Shown: positions 2,002 to 22,739 of the stretch, in pieces
How the letters are laid out: the number at the start of each line of letters is the position of its first letter
Numbering within the stretch: position 1 is the first letter of the stretch
IMG/VR virus record: IMGVR_UViG_3300046449_000435
Span: 1-22,739 of that record
Strand: one strand, 5' to 3'
DNA: 22,739 nucleotides
DNA from: a virus
The notes under the pieces: generated by a model
Told to the model about the DNA's origin: nothing
Databases searched by the model: none
The model's input: the letters and a program-made list of their open reading frames with translations, nothing else
Translations under genes and position numbers: made by a program

Positions 2002-2100
2002 TTGTGAGACTTTTTAGGCGTTTATGATGCTGATGAAGTAAAATATTTAGGAGTGGAGTTTGAAAAGAAAAGTCATTTAAAAACTGGGTATAGGGATAGT

Positions 2101-3288
2101 ATGAGTAAAGCAAGCAAATTAAAAAGAGATGTAAAAAAAACAGTTAAAAAGAGAGTTAATAATCAGAAGAAAGCAGAAGTGGCTCAAGAAAAACAAAAGG
2201 TTCCAATAATATATTTTGACGAATCGGGAAATACGGGTTCGAATCTCCTTGATAAAGATCAACCTGTGTTTACTTTGGCAAGTTGCAAGTTTTCCGATGA
2301 AGAAGCGCAAAGCCTTATTGATCTCTTAGATTCTAAATCCTCTCATGAAGCTCATTTTAAAAGGTTGAGAAAAAGAAAATCTGGACAAGATGGTATTGTT
2401 AGACTGATGAGTAGTAGTCTGATAAATAAAAATAATATAGTGGTTAATATTATGCTTAAGGATTTTATGGTAGTCTCAAAAATAGTCGATATTCTCATAG
2501 AGCATATGATGTTTTTAGAAGGTGAAGATCTTTATGTTAATGGAAAAAATATAGCACTTTCAAATGTGTTATATTATTGCTTACCACTACATCACGACAA
2601 AAATTTAGTTCAGTTAATGTATAATTCTTTTGTCATAATGATACGTGATCAGACAGAAGAAAATATTAGTGCATTTTACTCGAGTGCTGAAGAAGTTAAA
2701 AATTCCTCAATAGATGAAAAATATAATAAAAATATTGAGCTTATTTTAAATACTAAGAACTGTATTCACGATGCTCTTAGCGGTATAGATAAACATGCTC
2801 TAGATCCTTCAATACCAGCATTGTTCTTACATTGTATTAAGTGGGGTGAAATATATTCTAAAGGTTTCCACATAATTCATGATGACTCTCATAGTATTAA
2901 TAAACAAAAGGTATTGTTTTCACAGTTTATGGACTTGACACAATCAGAAGTTGAGGTTGGTTATGATCGACGGAAATTTAAACTTCCATTGAAAGGAAGA
3001 AGTCTAAAATTTGTGAATTCAGAGTTGAAAGTGCAATTACAAGTCGCCGATATTATTGCAAGTTCTTTTGCGTACTGGGCTGCAGGTGTGGGGGAGGGCG
3101 AAAAAGAGGATTATTTGTTTTTAAAGTTAGATGAAATTGGATTGGATAAATTTATCGGAAATAATAAAATCTGGCCAACGATGGATATAACACCTAGTGA
3201 TCTAGGCACCGTTCATGATGGTGGTTTAAGTCCTGCAAATCATTCAGCACAATTTTTAAATAATGCGATACCTAACCCCAATTTTTAA
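2101..3288 (+). CDS. DUF3800 domain protein
   Basis: A 395-residue protein. After a Lys-rich N-terminus it has the DUF3800 signature YFDESGNTG (residues 38-46), an acidic HDDS motif (260-263) and a C-terminal QVADII motif (314-319) in a helical stretch. DUF3800 proteins are predicted to have an RNase H-like fold and are frequent in phages and defence-type islands; no activity is proven for this one. I chose ATG 2101. An in-frame GTG at 2053 would add 16 residues but has no properly spaced ribosome binding site. The gene is AT-rich, unlike the tape measure gene before it, so probably acquired. It converges with another DUF3800-like gene across a shared terminator. Confidence 0.8.
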   Translation: MSKASKLKRDVKKTVKKRVNNQKKAEVAQEKQKVPIIYFDESGNTGSNLLDKDQPVFTLASCKFSDEEAQSLIDLLDSKSSHEAHFKRLRKRKSGQDGIVRLMSSSLINKNNIVVNIMLKDFMVVSKIVDILIEHMMFLEGEDLYVNGKNIALSNVLYYCLPLHHDKNLVQLMYNSFVIMIRDQTEENISAFYSSAEEVKNSSIDEKYNKNIELILNTKNCIHDALSGIDKHALDPSIPALFLHCIKWGEIYSKGFHIIHDDSHSINKQKVLFSQFMDLTQSEVEVGYDRRKFKLPLKGRSLKFVNSELKVQLQVADIIASSFAYWAAGVGEGEKEDYLFLKLDEIGLDKFIGNNKIWPTMDITPSDLGTVHDGGLSPANHSAQFLNNAIPNPNF

Positions 3289-3357: not shown

Positions 3358-4518
3358 TTATCTGTATTTCAAATAATTTTCGGCCAATTCAAGTCTTCCA
3401 TACATGAAGTAGTCATGCTTAACCTGCTCCCCATAACTTGTTATTCTGTATATAAAGCCTTTACTTTCTTGATCCGCTTCATCTATAAGTGATTTGATTA
3501 AATCTAATGTTTTAGTTTGATCTCTTGAAAGGGAGTTTCTTATAGTTATTAATTCATCTAGGCTTTTATCATGGATGAAAGTGAAATATTTTCCAAATAG
3601 ATTTGATAGTATGTCGGATATTTGAATTTCAACCACCTCATTTGATTTTACAAAATTATAGTTTTTAACTTGATGATTTTCTCCATGATTTGAAAAATAA
3701 TCAAATTGAGGTGATATTACACTTTCTTCATCGAATATATGTTTTGAAACTTTATATAAATTACTTTTTTGCGAATAAATGTGATATAGATTTTCAATTA
3801 AAATATTATCAGTTTCATCTTGTATAAAGGTTAATTTTTTTGTTTTTTCAAATGCATTTATAAAATCTTCATATATGTAATTTACATGCGAATATGTTTT
3901 TTCAGCAAGCCATTCTCTCATTATGCTTATGACTTCAATTTTAAAATCTTCTAGTTTTTCATTTTTGATGTTTGGGTATTGGAAGTTGTGAAGAGTTTTT
4001 AATGTTTTATCGATGTTTTTAATAAAAGAGGTATAAACAAAATCTTTTAATAAACCATGATGTTGATACAATGTGCTTGAATCATTTAACAACTCCGGAT
4101 CTATTGAGTCAACAATGTCTACTATTGAGTAATACAAAGCATTTAATGAGGTTATATGTATTAAATAATTACTTTCCAATATGTTATCTAAAAATAACTT
4201 TAAGTTTTTTGATTTTAAAGTGCTGATGAAATCATTTTTAAATATATGTTTTGCTTTGATTTCAATTACATTTTTAGGAATTGTTAAGTTTTTAAATATT
4301 TTTGATGAAGTTATATCGTCAGTGGTGAATTTCACTATTCCGCATAAAGAAAAGTGCTTTGTCGAATCCTCATTTAGTCTTCCTTCCTTTAATAAAAGTT
4401 TTCTAAAATTGTTAGATTCATCATAATAGAATGTATATTCTTTATCGATGTTTATGACACCATCTGCTTTTGCTTGTTCACGAATGATGTCATATACATT
4501 CTCATCATCTTTAGTCAT
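3358..4518 (-). CDS. DUF3800-like protein, divergent
   Basis: A 386-residue protein. Near the N-terminus it has YYDESNN (31-37), matching the DES motif of DUF3800. It has a central acidic IQDETDN and a C-terminal EIQISDILSNLFGKYF segment like the family's Q-x-x-D-ϕ-ϕ motif. The three motifs occur in the same order as in the convergent neighbour at 2101-3288, but overall similarity looks low, so it is not a recent duplicate. The gene is very AT-rich. Start ATG at 4518 is preceded by AAGGACG-like bases on the minus strand. Function unknown; an RNase H-fold nuclease role is only inferred from the family. Confidence 0.65.
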   Translation of the reverse strand: MTKDDENVYDIIREQAKADGVINIDKEYTFYYDESNNFRKLLLKEGRLNEDSTKHFSLCGIVKFTTDDITSSKIFKNLTIPKNVIEIKAKHIFKNDFISTLKSKNLKLFLDNILESNYLIHITSLNALYYSIVDIVDSIDPELLNDSSTLYQHHGLLKDFVYTSFIKNIDKTLKTLHNFQYPNIKNEKLEDFKIEVISIMREWLAEKTYSHVNYIYEDFINAFEKTKKLTFIQDETDNILIENLYHIYSQKSNLYKVSKHIFDEESVISPQFDYFSNHGENHQVKNYNFVKSNEVVEIQISDILSNLFGKYFTFIHDKSLDELITIRNSLSRDQTKTLDLIKSLIDEADQESKGFIYRITSYGEQVKHDYFMYGRLELAENYLKYR

Positions 4519-4623: not shown

Positions 4624-4652
4624 TTGAAAAGTAATTTTTCTTGGTCTAACAT
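4624..4652 (+). promoter_or_regulatory. Promoter of leader RNA A
   Basis: The -35 TTGAAA (4624-4629), 17-nt spacer and -10 TAACAT (4647-4652) predict a start near 4659, at the first leader hairpin. Copies B and C have the same arrangement with a 17-nt spacer. A dyad TTAGC/GCTAA (4602-4619) abuts the -35 box and could be an operator; it is absent from B and C. Confidence 0.7.
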
Positions 4653-4658
4653 TGCTCT

Positions 4659-4888
4659 TGAGGCGTCGAAACCTCTTTGCACAAGTCGGAAAGCCCCAAC
4701 CCCGTAAGCGTTGGTTTTTTTGTGTCTGCAATTTACGCAGTTACAAAGGCGCATTATTGCGTCGGGAGGGCGAGGAATAAAATACCCGCAAGGGAAATAA
4801 CTCCGCCTGGACTTGTGCAGGTTTCGAACCTCCCGACACCCTTCTTCGAAAAAGGGTGAAATTCGAAATAAACACAAGGAGGCCAGAC
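4659..4888 (+). ncRNA. Structured leader RNA, copy A
   Basis: A leader of about 230 nt before the Rha-type gene. Hairpin 1 is GAGG/CCTC (4660-4663/4672-4675) with the 8-nt loop CGTCGAAA. Next come a T-run hairpin, and a 9-bp long-range stem GCACAAGTC (4679-4687) / GACTTGTGC (4810-4818). The closing stem is GTCGGGAGG (4761-4769) / CCTCCCGAC (4829-4837). The last two interleave and so form a pseudoknot. Site TTTCGAA (4822-4828) lies between them and is complementary to the loop of hairpin 1 and to the loop CTTCGAAA of hairpin 3 (stem CACCCTT/AAGGGTG, 4837-4858). AGGAGG (4877-4882) ends the leader. Primary sequence differs from B and C almost everywhere, yet the order of elements is the same, except that A lacks the 5'-most hairpin of B and C. 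Confidence 0.8.
4696..4721 (+). terminator. Terminator-like hairpin inside leader A
   Basis: CCAAC (4696-4700) and GTTGG (4710-4714) form a 5-bp stem followed by seven T's, about 60 nt after the predicted start. The stem is weaker than in B and C, but the position and T-run are the same. It could attenuate transcription and release a short RNA carrying hairpin 1. Confidence 0.55.
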
Positions 4889-5491
4889 ATGGCTACGGAC
4901 ATTATCTCAACTAATGAAGCACCCGTTGTACAAATCATCAACAACCAAATCAGCACCACCTCAACCGATATTGCCAAGCATTTTGGTAAGCATCATAGAA
5001 ACGTATTACGCAAGATAGAAAGCCTTGAATGCAGTGCTGATTTTCATGCGCTCAATTTTGAGCCGATGATAATTGATGTGGAAGTAGGCAAGGGCGCAAC
5101 TCGCCAAGATCGAGCGTATCGCATCACCCGCGACGGTTTCGTCTTCTTGGCCATGGGCTTCACCGGCAGCAAAGCCGCCCAATTCAAAGAAGCCTACATC
5201 AACGCCTTCAACCAAATGGAAAAACAGCTCAACGAGCAGAAGCAACTCCCCGCCACCACAGACAACCTAGCACTAGCGGAAAAGGATAAGTACCAACTGC
5301 TCAACAACATCGTCAAATCCATGCAGATACAAAGCGACCCCGTCGTCGTTCCATCAAAAGAACTCATCGACCTAATCCAAGCCGTCCGCATGTACCAACA
5401 ACAAATAGCACGGCTGCAAACACCCGACTGGGTAAACGACAACATCACCCGCGTCAAAGACTACGCCCAACGCAACTTTGTAGACTTCTAA
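4889..5491 (+). CDS. rha: Rha-family phage regulator, chimeric
   Basis: A 200-residue protein. Residues about 15-110 resemble the phage Rha (pRha) domain, with the GKHHRNVLRKIE helix and the YRITRDGFVFLAMGFTG core. Rha proteins are phage regulators often grouped with antirepressors. Residues about 111-200 (from EKQL to QRNFVDF) are nearly identical to the C-terminal half of the AntA-type protein at 13799-14383, though the N-terminal halves are unrelated, so the N-terminal domain has been exchanged. I chose ATG 4889 because AGGAGG ends six bases upstream, exactly as in copy B; an in-frame GTG at 4856 would lie inside the leader RNA's third hairpin. Its expression is probably set by that leader. 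Confidence 0.85.
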   Translation: MATDIISTNEAPVVQIINNQISTTSTDIAKHFGKHHRNVLRKIESLECSADFHALNFEPMIIDVEVGKGATRQDRAYRITRDGFVFLAMGFTGSKAAQFKEAYINAFNQMEKQLNEQKQLPATTDNLALAEKDKYQLLNNIVKSMQIQSDPVVVPSKELIDLIQAVRMYQQQIARLQTPDWVNDNITRVKDYAQRNFVDF

Positions 5492-11689: not shown

Positions 11690-12148
11690 GTGAATACTTT
11701 GGGCATTAGAGTAAAACCTTGTTCGGTTATTATTGCAGTTTACGATTTCGACAATAGCCTAATTATTAATGTTGAAGATATTAAAATCCCTAAAGCGCTA
11801 CCAACTCCGGAAGCCTTGAAGTATGTAAGAAATTCAGTTTTGGATATTCTTAGAGAGTTTAATATCGAAAAGGCAGCCTTGAGGATTGTAGAAAGTAACT
11901 CTCAAACATTAAACATACGGCGAATTGAAATTGAAGGGGTGATTCAAGAAGCTTTTGCAAGCAGTCGTTTGTCTGCATATTTCTGTGGCCAAATATCTAC
12001 AATAGCGGCGAAGCTTAATATGAAAAGGGCAGATTTTAAATTGTTCGTCGAAGGCGAAAAAAATTTCGAACCCATAGAAAACTGGAGTGATCACAACAAA
12101 GAGGAGAAGGAAGCTATTCTTTCCGCTTTAGGAGCTGTCCATGCTTAA
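11690..12148 (+). CDS. RNase H-fold-like cassette protein
   Basis: A 152-residue protein starting at GTG 11690, preceded by AAGGAAG. The opening strand pattern (LGIRVKPCSVIIAVYDF) followed by a helix-strand pattern (AALRIVESNS, IEIEGVIQEAF, SAYFCG) resembles the RuvC/YqgF-like RNase H fold, notably the DUF3010 type. The usual first catalytic Asp is not visible, so it may be inactive or a binding protein. It overlaps the kinase gene by eight bases, which implies coupled translation. The fold call is inference from pattern. Confidence 0.5.
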   Translation: MNTLGIRVKPCSVIIAVYDFDNSLIINVEDIKIPKALPTPEALKYVRNSVLDILREFNIEKAALRIVESNSQTLNIRRIEIEGVIQEAFASSRLSAYFCGQISTIAAKLNMKRADFKLFVEGEKNFEPIENWSDHNKEEKEAILSALGAVHA

Positions 12149-13187
12149 TACTACAAGAACAGCAGAGTTAAGTTTTCATATCGAGAAAGAAATTGGCCAC
12201 GAAGGAAAGAATTCAACCGTGTTTACGGCTACAGATCTACAGTTGGGCGCCGAAATTGTAGTTAAAAAGATGCTTAAATCAGATTTTTCCAATATCGATG
12301 AATATTTTACAGAATCTAGTTTGTTGCATCTAAGCAGTCATCCAAATGTCGTTCCGATTTATTACGCTTGCCAAGACGAAGATCATATTTTTCTTGCCAT
12401 GCCGCACTTTAAACATGGATCTCTTAAGAAGAAAATGAGAGAGTCTTCCCCTAGCGTCAGAGATGTTGTCATCTGGTCTACTCAAGTACTTAGTGGTTTG
12501 CATAATATACATTCTAAAAGGCTAATTCACTTTGATGTGAAGCCAGATAATATATTATTTTCAGATAGAGGCGAGGCGCTTTTGTCTGACTTTGGGCTAA
12601 CTAAGCAAACCTCGTACAGCGGTATTGCTGGGCAAGATAGAATATATGGCAACATGGTTCCTCCCGAGGCTTTTAGTACATCGGACTTTAATAATCAATT
12701 CGACATATATCAATTTGGGCTTACTCTTCATAGAATGTGCGCAGGAGACGCTACTTTTTATGCTGAGTATGCTACTTTTATAGAGGGTGGGGTATTAAAC
12801 CGCTTAAATTTTAGACATGCCGTGGTAAATGGGCAGTTTCCAAATCAAAGCAGCTATCCAGAGCATATACCTCAAGCATTAATAAATACTATCAAAAAGT
12901 GCCTAGCTATAGATTTAGGCTGTAGATATTCTTCTGCAATAGACGTAGTAAATGACTTGGCCAGCATAGATGGTGAACTCCTTGATTGGAGGTTATCTAA
13001 TGAGGGTGGGAATAGGACGTGGATCAAGCAAGCCACAGATGGACGACAATTTGAGCTAACTGTTGACTCAAATGGAGCCTCTCAGGCGAGAAAAACATCG
13101 GTGGCGGGAAACACTCAAAGAGTGACTGATTATTGTAAGCCCCAGTTAAATAGATCGGAAATAAAGCGCTTCCTTAGGAGGTACTAG
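12141..13187 (+). CDS. Hanks-type Ser/Thr protein kinase
   Basis: A 348-residue protein with an intact kinase domain. It has a glycine-loop equivalent IGHEGKNSTV (18-27), a candidate ATP-binding Lys (VVKK, 41-43), HFDVKPDN (130-137, replacing HRD with HFD; catalytic Asp132 and Asn137), DFG (150-152), a PPE motif near 174-176, and the DIYQFG helix (188-193). About 80 residues follow the kinase fold, with an RTWIKQATDGRQFELTVD segment. No transmembrane segment is visible, so it is cytosolic. It is the middle gene of a three-gene cassette. Eukaryote-like kinases of this type occur in anti-phage systems; a defence or toxin role here is inferred from context. Confidence 0.9.
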   Translation: MLNTTRTAELSFHIEKEIGHEGKNSTVFTATDLQLGAEIVVKKMLKSDFSNIDEYFTESSLLHLSSHPNVVPIYYACQDEDHIFLAMPHFKHGSLKKKMRESSPSVRDVVIWSTQVLSGLHNIHSKRLIHFDVKPDNILFSDRGEALLSDFGLTKQTSYSGIAGQDRIYGNMVPPEAFSTSDFNNQFDIYQFGLTLHRMCAGDATFYAEYATFIEGGVLNRLNFRHAVVNGQFPNQSSYPEHIPQALINTIKKCLAIDLGCRYSSAIDVVNDLASIDGELLDWRLSNEGGNRTWIKQATDGRQFELTVDSNGASQARKTSVAGNTQRVTDYCKPQLNRSEIKRFLRRY

Positions 13188-13529: not shown

Positions 13530-13558
13530 TTGACCCCTGCCCAATCTTGATCTAGTAT
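13530..13558 (+). promoter_or_regulatory. Promoter of leader RNA B
   Basis: -35 TTGACC (13530-13535), 17-nt spacer, -10 TAGTAT (13553-13558). The predicted start, near 13565, coincides with the first leader hairpin. CAATCTTGATC in the spacer is nearly the same in copy C. Confidence 0.75.
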
Positions 13559-13564
13559 TTCTCT

Positions 13565-13798
13565 TGCACTGGCAAAATCCAGTGCCGGGATTCGAACCCC
13601 GTTTATACCGTAGCGGCCTAAAACACGCACCGCGTGTTTTTTTGTGGCCGGAGTCCGCCTGTTATGGTGGGTCTTTGTTGGGCAACCTTCGGGTTGGCCG
13701 TTCCTACGGGCGGTAGTTCGAACCTGATTTAGACCCACCACCTTATTGAGTTTCGAACCTCACGAGGTGGTCAAAACATTGACCGTAGGAGGCCAAGT
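13565..13798 (+). ncRNA. Structured leader RNA, copy B
   Basis: A leader of about 234 nt. In order: hairpin GCACTGG/CCAGTGC (13566-13585); hairpin 1 CGGG/CCCG with loop ATTCGAAC (13586-13601); pseudoknot strand CCGTAG (13608-13613); T-run hairpin; closing stem TGGTGGGTCT (13665-13674) / AGACCCACCA (13731-13740); UUCG hairpin CAACC/GGTTG (13683-13696); pseudoknot partner CTACGG (13704-13709); site GTTCGAA (13716-13722); hairpin 3 GAG/CTC with loop TTTCGAAC (13748-13761). Outer arms of hairpin 3, ACCACCTT (13737-13744) / GAGGTGGT (13764-13771), overlap the closing stem's 3' strand, so the two compete. AGGAGG is at 13787-13792. Most stems show compensatory changes against copy C. Confidence 0.85.
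13621..13643 (+). terminator. Intrinsic terminator inside leader B
   Basis: AAACACGC (13621-13628) / GCGTGTTT (13632-13639) with a 3-nt loop, followed by T's. It lies about 60-75 nt after the predicted start. Flanking CGGCC/GGCCG (13614-13618/13646-13650) can enclose it. Confidence 0.75.
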
Positions 13799-14383
13799 AT
13801 GGCTATGCAACTGATTCCGCTTCACACTCGCTCTATCAACGAGCAAACCCTCGATACTGTAAACGCCCGTGAACTTCACACCTTTCTTGAACTAGGCCGC
13901 GATTTCTCCAATTGGATAAAAGCTCGCATTGCTCAATATGGCTTTGAAGAGGGCGAAGATTTCATGATTATTTCCCGCTCGCCAAAATTGGCGAGCGGGA
14001 ATCGTGGCGCAACAAAAGAGTATTTCATCACCCTAGACATGGCAAAAGAACTGGCCATGGTCGAACGCAACGAGAAGGGCAAACAAGCCCGCCGCTACTT
14101 CATCGACTGCGAAAAACAACTCACCGAGCAGAAACAACTTCCCGTCACCACGCCCAACACGGCAATCCTCGAAACCGACAAATACCAACTCCTCAACAAC
14201 ATCGTCAAATCCATGCAACTCGACAGCGACCCCGTCGTCGTTCCATCAAAAGAGCTCATCGACCTAATCCAAGCCGTCCGCATGTACCAAACCCAAATAG
14301 CCCAGCTACGCACACCAGACTGGGTAAACGACAACATCACCCGAGTCAAAGACTACGCACAACGTAACTTTGTAGACTTCTAA
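13799..14383 (+). CDS. AntA-type antirepressor, chimeric
   Basis: A 194-residue protein. Residues about 10-105 match the AntA/AntB antirepressor domain: VNARELHTFLELGRDFSNWIK, GFEEGEDF, then EYFITLDMAKELAMVERNEKGKQARRYFI. Such proteins relieve phage repressor control. Residues about 105-194 are almost identical to the last 90 residues of the Rha-type protein at 4889-5491 (LLNNIVKSMQ, VVVPSKELIDLIQAVRMYQ, DWVNDNITRVKDYAQRNFVDF in pieces), while the N-terminal domain is unrelated. ATG 13799 lies six bases after AGGAGG. It is preceded by leader RNA B, which likely controls it. Confidence 0.88.
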   Translation: MAMQLIPLHTRSINEQTLDTVNARELHTFLELGRDFSNWIKARIAQYGFEEGEDFMIISRSPKLASGNRGATKEYFITLDMAKELAMVERNEKGKQARRYFIDCEKQLTEQKQLPVTTPNTAILETDKYQLLNNIVKSMQLDSDPVVVPSKELIDLIQAVRMYQTQIAQLRTPDWVNDNITRVKDYAQRNFVDF

Positions 14384-18228: not shown

Positions 18229-20061
18229 TTGATTGAAACAATGTGTTGTCTTATTAGGAGTGCCATAGCTAAGAAGCAAGAAGGCATTGCCGACATCGTC
18301 ACCGCCGCAGGGCAATCCGGCATCGAAAAAAGCCAACTGCTCCAGTTTGCTGAATCCGCCACCAAAATGAGCGTCGCATGGGACGTATCCGCAGAAGAGG
18401 CCGGTTCCACCCTCGCCACATGGCGCGCGGCCATGGGACTCACCCAAAAGAACGCTCTAGACCTCGCCGACGCCACCAACTACCTAAGCAACAACATGAA
18501 CGCTAAGGCAAAGGACATTGCCGCCGTCATGGTGCGCCAAGGCTCCACCGCCATGGGCGCAGGCTTAAACTACAACCAAACCGCCGCCTTATCCGCCAGT
18601 CTCATTGCCGGTGGCGCCACCCAAGAAGTCGCCGCCACCGCGCTAAAAAACATCACCGGACGACTCACATCAGGCTACGCCGCCACCGCCGCCCAACAAG
18701 ACGCCCAAGGCACCCTTGTAGAAGTCATGCGCGGGCTAAAAGACGTCAACGCCACAGACCGAGGCGCAGTAATCTCGCAACTCTTCGGTGAAGAAGTAAA
18801 AGGCGCCGTCGCCAAACTCGTCACCACACTGGACGACGACAAAAACGGCCTCGTCGCCGCCTTTGCCAAAGTCGCCAACCAAGCCGATCGCACCAACAGC
18901 GTCAACGACGAATACGCCAACCGCGCCGCCACCCGTGGCCACAAACTAGCCATGCTCGGCGCCAAATTCGACCGCATGACCATCGTACTGGGCGACCGAC
19001 TCTTGCCCGTGCTCGACGCCGTGTTACCGCCGCTCATGTCCGTAGTGGACAGCGTGGCCAACTTTGCCGAAGCCAACCCACAGCTTGCCAGCGGTTTACT
19101 TGGCGTGGCCGCCGCCATCGCCGTGGTCAAAGCCGGTGCCATCGCCTTCAAACTCGCCAAACTCACCCTGGGCAACGGGCGGGATCGCTTCAACCTTGGC
19201 AAAACCAAACTCACCAGCACCACCGATCAAACCACCCAAAGCGCCAACCGAGCATCCCGATCCCTCGATCGACTCAACCGAAAACTAAACGGACTCGGCG
19301 CAGGCGCCGGTTATGGAGGAAGAGGAGGACGAGCAGGAATAAGAGGAAGTGCAGGAAGAGTTGGAACAAGGGGAAAGACACTAGGAAACAGTGAGCCACA
19401 CAGTCGAATTGGTAACCGACTCGCAGGTCTAAGAAGTTATGAAGATCAAATTTCAGACCGTAACAACCCAACCAAACGCGCCAGCGCAGGCGGCCGCTTT
19501 GGTAAGTTTGGCAAACTCGGTGCCTTAAAAGGCGCAGGGCGATTCTTTCGGCCACTGGACATGGCCATGCAAGGTGTCAGCCTCGCTTCTGCCATGTCAG
19601 GCGGCAGCGGCACCGAAATAGGCGCGACCGCAGGCGACATGGTAGGGGGAATGGGTGGCGCCGCCGCGGGCGGCTTAGCCGGAGCCGCCATAGGTTCCGT
19701 CGTGCCCATTATTGGCACCGCCATTGGTGGAATCGTTGGCTCCATCGCAGGCGGCATGGGCGGAGGCGCGCTAGGGGAATGGATCGGCAGCAACATAGGC
19801 GGCTGGTTTGAAGACGACAAAACCGACCAACCCGCACCAGAAGCAATAGCCCAACAAACCAAACAACTGCAAAGCAACAACAAAAGCATGACCTTCGCGC
19901 CAACCATCCACCTAGCACCAACAGGCAACCCAGCCTACGACCAACAAGTCAGCGACCAAGTGATAGAACGCCTAAAAGCTGAATTTACACAGGGCATGAT
20001 GGGCAACATGGACGTGGCGACAAGAGCCGATGGGAGCTTGACGGATAAGAGGGGGAGTTAG
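18229..20061 (+). CDS. T: Second tape measure gene, 5'-truncated
   Basis: A 610-codon open frame nearly identical to the gene at 1-1677 where they overlap. Homology to phage tape measures starts only around codon 15 (after 18270); upstream DNA is AT-rich and unrelated. The first usable starts (TTG 18229, ATG 18241) therefore lie in foreign sequence, and the gene has lost its 5' part. Compared with the first copy it lacks 19 residues between two QQDA repeats, from a 57-bp deletion. It is probably not functional as a tape measure and serves as a sequence scaffold. Cargo follows its stop codon directly; 20062-20251 holds nothing I recognise. Confidence 0.85.
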   Translation: MIETMCCLIRSAIAKKQEGIADIVTAAGQSGIEKSQLLQFAESATKMSVAWDVSAEEAGSTLATWRAAMGLTQKNALDLADATNYLSNNMNAKAKDIAAVMVRQGSTAMGAGLNYNQTAALSASLIAGGATQEVAATALKNITGRLTSGYAATAAQQDAQGTLVEVMRGLKDVNATDRGAVISQLFGEEVKGAVAKLVTTLDDDKNGLVAAFAKVANQADRTNSVNDEYANRAATRGHKLAMLGAKFDRMTIVLGDRLLPVLDAVLPPLMSVVDSVANFAEANPQLASGLLGVAAAIAVVKAGAIAFKLAKLTLGNGRDRFNLGKTKLTSTTDQTTQSANRASRSLDRLNRKLNGLGAGAGYGGRGGRAGIRGSAGRVGTRGKTLGNSEPHSRIGNRLAGLRSYEDQISDRNNPTKRASAGGRFGKFGKLGALKGAGRFFRPLDMAMQGVSLASAMSGGSGTEIGATAGDMVGGMGGAAAGGLAGAAIGSVVPIIGTAIGGIVGSIAGGMGGGALGEWIGSNIGGWFEDDKTDQPAPEAIAQQTKQLQSNNKSMTFAPTIHLAPTGNPAYDQQVSDQVIERLKAEFTQGMMGNMDVATRADGSLTDKRGS

Positions 20062-22476: not shown

Positions 22477-22505
22477 TTGACCCCACTCAAATCTTGATCT
22501 AACAT
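22477..22505 (+). promoter_or_regulatory. Promoter of leader RNA C
   Basis: -35 TTGACC (22477-22482), 17-nt spacer, -10 TAACAT (22500-22505); predicted start near 22512. Confidence 0.75.
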
Positions 22506-22511
22506 TCTTAT

Positions 22512-22739
22512 TGCATTGGCAAAATCCAGTGCCGGAATTAGAACTCCGTTTTACACAGTGGCCTAAGACACGCAGCGCGTGTTTTTTTGTGGCCAAGATT
22601 TGCCTGTTATGGTGGGTCTTTGTTGGGCCAGCTTCGGCTGGGCCGTTCCTGTGGCGGTAGTTCTAACCTGATTCAGACCCACCACCTTATTGAAATTAGA
22701 ACTTCATTTGGTGGTCAAAATCATACACAGGAGGCCAAA
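22512..22739 (+). ncRNA. Structured leader RNA, copy C (to window end)
   Basis: Same order as copy B. Hairpin GCATTGG/CCAGTGC (22513-22532, one G-U pair); hairpin 1 CGGA/TCCG with loop ATTAGAAC (22533-22548); pseudoknot strand CACAG (22554-22558); T-run hairpin; closing stem TGGTGGGTCT (22610-22619) / AGACCCACCA (22675-22684); UUCG hairpin CCAGC/GCTGG (22628-22641); pseudoknot partner CTGTG (22649-22653); site GTTCTAA (22660-22666); hairpin 3 GAA/TTC with loop ATTAGAAC (22692-22705) inside ACCACC/GGTGGT. AGGAGG is at 22729-22734, so a start codon is expected at 22741, just beyond the window. Confidence 0.85.
22568..22588 (+). terminator. Intrinsic terminator inside leader C
   Basis: ACACGC (22568-22573) / GCGTGT (22577-22582) with a 3-nt loop and a seven-T run. 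It is enclosed by TGGCC/GGCCA, where copy B has CGGCC/GGCCG, a compensatory change. Confidence 0.75.

Follow-up and report, generated by a model that had tools for sequence, protein, structure and literature searches.

Leaders and neighboring genes in the virus record

The virus record analyzed here, the whole of which (22,739 bases) is referred to as the window, holds phage tail genes among its content, as identified by PF and PHROG profile matches, together with three structured leaders (A, B, and C) whose positions were confirmed by inspection of the sequence (Table 1). Leader A precedes a Rha-type gene for which the PHROG call was transcriptional regulator/anti-repressor, and leader B precedes an AntA/AntB antirepressor gene; the contig ends just ahead of the start codon of the gene behind leader C, leaving that gene outside the window. 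A promoter scan returned one sigma-70-like match per leader, each at the expected distance. Each leader runs from the promoter through the a1 hairpin, the b1 site (in B and C weak or missing), a hairpin resembling a terminator, the C4-like RNA, and a2 to b2 over the Shine-Dalgarno (SD) sequence and then the gene.

Several other features of the window were recorded. The tape-measure gene is present in two copies (1-1664 and 18442-20048) that are 92% identical and 18 kb apart, with accessory genes filling the interval between them, which points to either a duplicated tail module or two tail clusters in tandem; the repeat may also be an assembly joint. Two DUF3800 genes (2053-3288 on the plus strand and 3358-4518 on the minus strand) are convergent neighbors upstream of leader A, and a serine/threonine protein kinase gene (12141-13187) lies amid phage accessory genes. 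Plasmid sequences searched with another part of the window gave no match.

Table 1. Positions of the leaders, their elements, and the associated genes in the window
Feature	Position	Strand	Basis or remark
Leader A	4659-4888
Leader A sigma-70-like promoter, TTGAAA-17-TAACAT	4624..4652	+	consensus match only; 0.5 such matches per region expected by chance
Leader A hairpin GAGG-CGUCGAAA-CCUC presenting a1 (4666-4674)	4660..4675	+	sequence; a1 complementary to a' 4819-4827 by 9 nt, P = 0.0035 (dinucleotide shuffles)
Leader A b1	4678..4687	+	perfect 10-nt complement of loop b'; P = 0.001 (dinucleotide shuffles)
Leader A intrinsic-terminator-like hairpin CCAAC..GUUGG + T7	4696..4721	+	by eye; isrK-terminator position
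Leader A C4-like antisense RNA, sRNA-Xcc1	4761..4837	+	Rfam match 4761-4845
Parts of leader A sRNA-Xcc1	P1 4761-4769/4829-4837; b' 4810-4819; a' 4819-4828
Leader A a2 site UUCGAAA	4845..4851, second copy 4862-4868	+	complement of a'
Leader A b2 CACAAG (4873-4878) overlapping SD AAGGAGG (4876-4882)	4873..4882	+
Rha-type regulator/antirepressor-like gene	4889..5491	+	behind leader A; PF09669, 5.4e-28
Leader B	13565-13798
Leader B sigma-70-like promoter	13530..13558	+	consensus match only
Leader B isrK module	13566..13642	+	a1 13591-13597; b1 13608-13613; terminator hairpin at about 13623-13643
Leader B C4 antisense RNA	13660..13745	+	b' 13702-13709; a' 13716-13722
Leader B a2	13752..13758	+	7 nt; P = 0.047 (dinucleotide shuffles)
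Leader B b2/SD CCGUAGGA	13783..13790	+	8-nt complement of b'; P = 0.0095
AntA/AntB antirepressor gene	13799..14383	+	behind leader B; PF08346, 2.7e-27
Leader C	22512-22739
Leader C sigma-70-like promoter	22477..22505	+	consensus match only
Leader C isrK module	22513..22587	+	a1 22538-22545
Leader C C4 antisense RNA	22605..22689	+	b' 22647-22653; a' 22659-22666
Leader C a2 (22696-22703) and b2/SD CACAGGA (22726-22732)	22696..22732	+

RNA family assignment of the leaders

The three leaders were scored with Rfam covariance models. The isrK model (RF01394; gathering score 50) reached 66.6 bits in leader B and 63.7 bits in leader C, and the C4 antisense RNA model (RF01695; gathering score 45) reached 58.2 and 56.4 bits, respectively, all above threshold, while c4-a1b1 (RF03163) scored below its gathering score in both. 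Leader A had a full-length match to sRNA-Xcc1 (RF02221; gathering score 53) with 74.4 bits (E 3.8e-12), also above threshold, and gave no match to RF01695 at E <= 1 and none to RF01394. Leader A nonetheless has the isrK order of a1 hairpin, b1, and terminator-like hairpin, and with no C4 match over it, it appears C4-like in its working yet stands outside the C4 family by model. The sequence-only reading had presented the leaders as a new RNA class of no known family and had named Rfam as the place where a match would speak against this; such matches were found in all three leaders above gathering score, and B and C are, by these models, of already known kinds (isrK/C4 type). Its description of structured, conserved leaders with covarying long-range pairs was borne out, and the covariation holds in the larger set of loci examined below.

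The leaders have architecture and logic in common with the C4 RNA of phages P1 and P7 (immI; RF01695, with c4-a1b1 RF03163), in which a P1-P2-P3 fold carries the loops a' and b', the sites a1 and b1 lie upstream, and a2 and b2 lie over the ribosome-binding site of the antirepressor operon; this C4 is a processed RNA acting in trans (PMC5320573; PMC8546580). Leaders B and C are members of the C4 family, so that a processed RNA of about 77 nt repressing in trans would be expected from them; leader A differs in that its RNA is sRNA-Xcc1. The isrK-C4-antirepressor order of B and C is also found in the Salmonella prophage Gifsy-1, the source of IsrK (RF01394), where (locus L453) isrK (34240-34316) and C4 (34131-34214) are followed, directly adjoining, by the antirepressor-like gene STM2616 (anrP), the SD region of which has AUCACCG, complementary to the Gifsy-1 C4 P3 loop. 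Compensatory mutations in Gifsy-1 support the pairing of IsrK with the downstream region, anrP is activated by IsrK in trans, and STnc1160 is a stable processed RNA downstream of isrK (PMC4825925). In the published model, in which the term "C4 antisense" is absent, IsrK activates the uORF "orf45" (PMC4825925); our own reading differs from this uORF model and suggests that the orf45/STnc1160 region is a C4 RNA and that IsrK is its sponge.

Alternative pairings and compensatory changes

In leaders B and C, a' is complementary to both a1 and a2 by 7-8 nt. The pairings of leader C with its downstream sites exceeded those of dinucleotide shuffles (a2, 8 nt, P = 0.0025; b2, 7 nt, P = 0.03), as did those of leader B (Table 1). 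The upstream b1 site of leader B (6 nt, P = 0.49 in dinucleotide shuffles) was not beyond chance, and leader C had no b1 match of 6 nt to b'. Most of the compensatory changes claimed between B and C could be located by script: a G-C to A-T change in the a1 hairpin, C-G to T-A in the outer stem around the T-run hairpin, and both A-T to C-G and C-G to G-C in the UUCG hairpin. Two separate G-C to A-T hairpin changes (hairpins 1 and 3) had been counted, of which one could be placed and the other could not. The changes attributed to a pseudoknot (A-T to G-C and C-G to T-A) lie in the pairing between the b' loop and the SD, and a further compensatory change, G-C to T-A, was found in the a'/a2 pairing. 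The first isrK hairpin changed on one side (C-G to U-G), and the P1 and terminator stems did not vary between B and C.

Leader A has the same architecture in a different sequence, as the sequence-only reading had proposed. The stem GTCGGGAGG/CCTCCCGAC that it had picked out is P1, which closes the sRNA-Xcc1 element, and the stem GCACAAGTC/GACTTGTGC is the 10-nt pairing of b1 with b', which crosses P1. The long-range stems of the proposed single pseudoknotted fold are best understood as pairings of an antisense RNA with its targets, possible in cis as well as in trans, and not as one static fold. The terminator-like hairpin of leader A was not reported by an automatic terminator scan of the leader, and the same element recurs in other loci (L206, L207, and others). 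The downstream matches of leader A taken alone were within chance of dinucleotide shuffles (b2, 6 nt, P = 0.16; a2, 7 nt, P = 0.08), and for this reason sRNA-Xcc1 loci were gathered for a test across the family.

Loop and target matches across the sRNA-Xcc1 family

sRNA-Xcc1 occurs widely in bacteria; since 2010, work on it has dealt with links to virulence or with its presence in vesicles, and many targets have been predicted for it. We searched virus contigs and genomes (mostly proteobacteria, with few other phyla by record title) with a pattern that fixed the P2 core alone and left a', b', and the targets free; a first, stricter pattern had given 2 loci and was relaxed for the family set. 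The loci with a usable start codon were grouped by leader similarity into 111 clusters. In 74 of the 111 clusters, the b' loop matched the SD region of the gene behind it by at least 6 nt; 5000 random re-pairings of b' and SD partners averaged 8.9 such clusters and never exceeded 22. These figures are effect sizes and not exact probabilities because the clusters share descent. The other pairings followed the same trend in a second analysis: among the 71 b2-matched clusters, a'/a2 was matched in 59 (9.4 expected), a'/a1 in 50 (8.6 expected), and b'/b1 in 53 (7.5 expected). The identical approach applied to C4 gave a b'/SD match in 15/15 loci (3.3 expected) and so recovers the known C4 mechanism. 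Examples of the pairing are UUUUCCUUGU with ACAAGGAAAA in Vibrio phage VPBES and CCUCUGGA with UCCAGAGG in Azospirillum.

A consensus fold of 108 sRNA-Xcc1 elements (MAFFT and RNAalifold) did not recover P1, and the element ends were ragged. Alignment on P1 instead yielded 46 distinct P1 stems, the shuffled partners of which pair at 63%, and as these stems had been preselected as paired, they are weak evidence.

Overall, these matches indicate that the sRNA-Xcc1 of leader A would act as a C4-like anti-SD antisense RNA and that the sRNA-Xcc1 family probably shares this role; the predicted a2 and b2 sites of leader A are established by the wider family and not by A alone. sRNA-Xcc1 would thereby gain a specific target in the ribosome-binding site of the gene that follows it, in most cases one for a phage antirepressor. 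Among the openly readable papers searched, none that names sRNA-Xcc1 also contains "C4 RNA" or "antirepressor", and one lists both RNA families as annotations only. The reading proposed here, of an RNA that works like C4 against the SD, occurs in none of them and may be new.

Published observations of sRNA-Xcc1 come from several settings. In Xanthomonas it is an 88-nt RNA identified by cloning, Northern blot, and RACE (PMC2996969), and descriptions from Xanthomonas and Xylella make it a trans-acting sRNA encoded in an integron and controlled by HrpG/HrpX, place it beside symE, or report it from vesicles (PMC12444791, PMC12189769). Leader A holds sRNA-Xcc1 but sits in a virus record, and the integron and HrpG/HrpX traits are not structural features of the family. 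The sRNA-Xcc1 of EHEC EDL933 is listed as abundant and untranslated, with 40,293 RNA reads and a ribosome coverage value of 0.02 (PMC5331693). An EDL933 copy before an ant gene has an 8-nt match of b' (CUUAUUUG) to the SD (CAAAUAAG), and we assume, across assemblies that differ in coordinates, that this is the copy with the 40,293 reads.

Genes behind the RNAs and exchange of cassettes

The genes following matched sRNA-Xcc1 copies are, judging from profile matches, mostly of antirepressor type: the 68 genes included Rha (15), Bro-N (10), AntA (6), KilA-N (6), P22_AR (5), ORF6N (4), and SymE (1), and PHROG labels many of them as anti-repressors. Annotated genes in this position include ant in phage Rac-SA53, Rha in Pantoea, and Bro-N in Pasteurella, and in E. 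coli chromosomes the regions matching the Rac-SA53 query hold genes annotated as AntA/AntB or Ant. Among 50 virus records, mostly chosen via Rha or Ant, C4 was present in 32 and sRNA-Xcc1 in 7. An isrK or c4-a1b1 lay just upstream of C4 in 15 of 20 C4-type sources, some of which overlap.

The two RNAs also replace each other before closely related genes. The rha gene behind leader A shares 82-88% identity with genes in four other loci (L008-L011), with homology starting near window position 4872, i.e., at b2/SD; upstream of rha, these relatives have isrK-C4, not sRNA-Xcc1. The position ahead of this gene is thus taken by either RNA, and closely related rha genes under either RNA amount to a natural exchange experiment. 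We infer that Rha serves as an antirepressor.

Two further settings were observed. An Enterobacter OXA-48 plasmid (L210, 3001-3981) carries a unit of sRNA-Xcc1 and a KilA-N gene near an insertion-sequence cluster, and SymE-type toxin genes, not antirepressors, stand behind some target-matched sRNA-Xcc1 copies (L362, 651-863; L420, 411-608).

Proposed antisense switch and alternative explanations

We consider it very likely that every leader works on its own as an antisense switch like C4 (immI) of phages P1 and P7. The analogy is to published work on P1/P7 C4 and Gifsy-1 IsrK, on which we base the proposed RNA processing, the block of translation, the role as a sponge, and the influence on lysogeny. 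Transcription from the promoter would either stop at the intrinsic terminator, leaving a short, isrK-like transcript with a1/b1, or continue through the C4-like RNA and on into the antirepressor gene. In B and C this C4-like RNA is C4, and in A it is sRNA-Xcc1. It is predicted to fold into a P1 closing stem, a P2 hairpin, and a P3 hairpin with loop b', together with strand a'; freed from the read-through transcript, it would bind a2 and b2 in trans. As b2 overlaps the SD, translation of the antirepressor would be blocked, and lysogeny and immunity would be favored. The a1/b1 sites may compete for the a'/b' loops in cis, which would be the observed pseudoknot, and when carried on the short RNA they may compete in trans as a sponge, relieving the block. 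One scheme would unite sRNA-Xcc1, C4, and isrK, with IsrK readable as a C4 sponge.

The compact fold, crossing stems, and compensatory changes might also be expected of a novel leader folded as a pseudoknot within one chain, with ligand sensing or self-cleavage in the manner of a riboswitch or ribozyme. We regard this as highly improbable, given the Rfam matches to C4, isrK, and sRNA-Xcc1, and given that the strands of the crossing helices can pair either upstream (a1/b1) or downstream (a2/b2), as antisense-target pairs should; moreover, the loops vary freely while complementarity is kept, and a conserved ligand core would differ in this respect. Another alternative is a leader acting mainly in cis as an intramolecular attenuator, in which b' would pair with its own SD and a1/b1 pairing would free the SD. 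One transcript carries all the elements that this needs, and the published Gifsy-1 model is alike in its alternative structures A and B (PMC4825925). Against it, the P1/P7 C4 is a processed trans-acting RNA (PMC5320573, PMC8546580), the stable processed STnc1160 lies downstream of isrK in Gifsy-1 (PMC4825925), and sRNA-Xcc1 was isolated as an 88-nt RNA (PMC2996969) and is abundant in EHEC (PMC5331693). We think a mainly cis-acting device unlikely.

Transcriptional control like that of P4 CI, with pairing at the upstream site driving termination in the leader instead of an SD block, would also explain why an intrinsic terminator in each leader lies between upstream and downstream target sites, as in seqA/CI/seqC. 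The P4 CI RNA, too, is antisense and processed, is flanked by complementary sites (seqA and seqC), and controls phage immunity, and the authors of the Gifsy-1 study themselves drew the parallel between IsrK and P4 CI/seqA/seqC (PMC4825925). P4 CI, likened here by description, differs from the leaders in acting by transcription termination, and the placement of b2 at the SD in 74/111 sRNA-Xcc1 clusters and 15/15 C4 loci would be needless for pure transcriptional control, which makes this explanation rather improbable on its own; transcriptional and SD-blocking mechanisms could act together. A similar role is known for the P22 sar RNA, also likened by description, a small RNA that blocks antirepressor translation (PMC12197685).

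sRNA-Xcc1 copies lacking an SD match

In the second analysis, 35 of 106 sRNA-Xcc1 clusters had no SD match, and the family is therefore not uniformly autoregulatory. These 35 clusters were matched at b1 in 30, at a1 in 30, and at a2 in only 9. Twenty of them were of Xanthomonadaceae type, 18 lying before XAC0095-family genes and one before SymE.

One broader reading treats sRNA-Xcc1 and C4 as swappable cassettes of one addressable antisense system and the Xanthomonadaceae copies as free trans-acting RNAs whose addresses are diverse, for example anti-phage. As a whole we find this doubtful, and its parts fare differently: the interchangeability of cassettes is well supported, loops being rewritten freely so long as the paired sites follow, and the anti-phage part is not supported. 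The 4-nt b' addresses of solitary Xanthomonadaceae copies overlapped phage sites in 8 of 19 cases (27% when column-shuffled, P about 0.02). Joint a2 and b2 phage-site matches for these copies numbered 1 against 2.96 expected, and two direct pattern scans of virus contigs gave many matches, as chance predicts for short gapped patterns. Immunity against phage antirepressors through solitary Xanthomonadaceae sRNA-Xcc1 was set aside as unsupported, the joint matches being no commoner than in the controls.

The Xanthomonadaceae copies before XAC0095-family genes (L403, L409, L410, L413, L416, L425, L439, L447, L356, L359, L363, L385, and L387) have matched a1/b1 sites and lack a2/b2, and such copies are diverse in their loops, with 36 distinct loop combinations among 40 copies.
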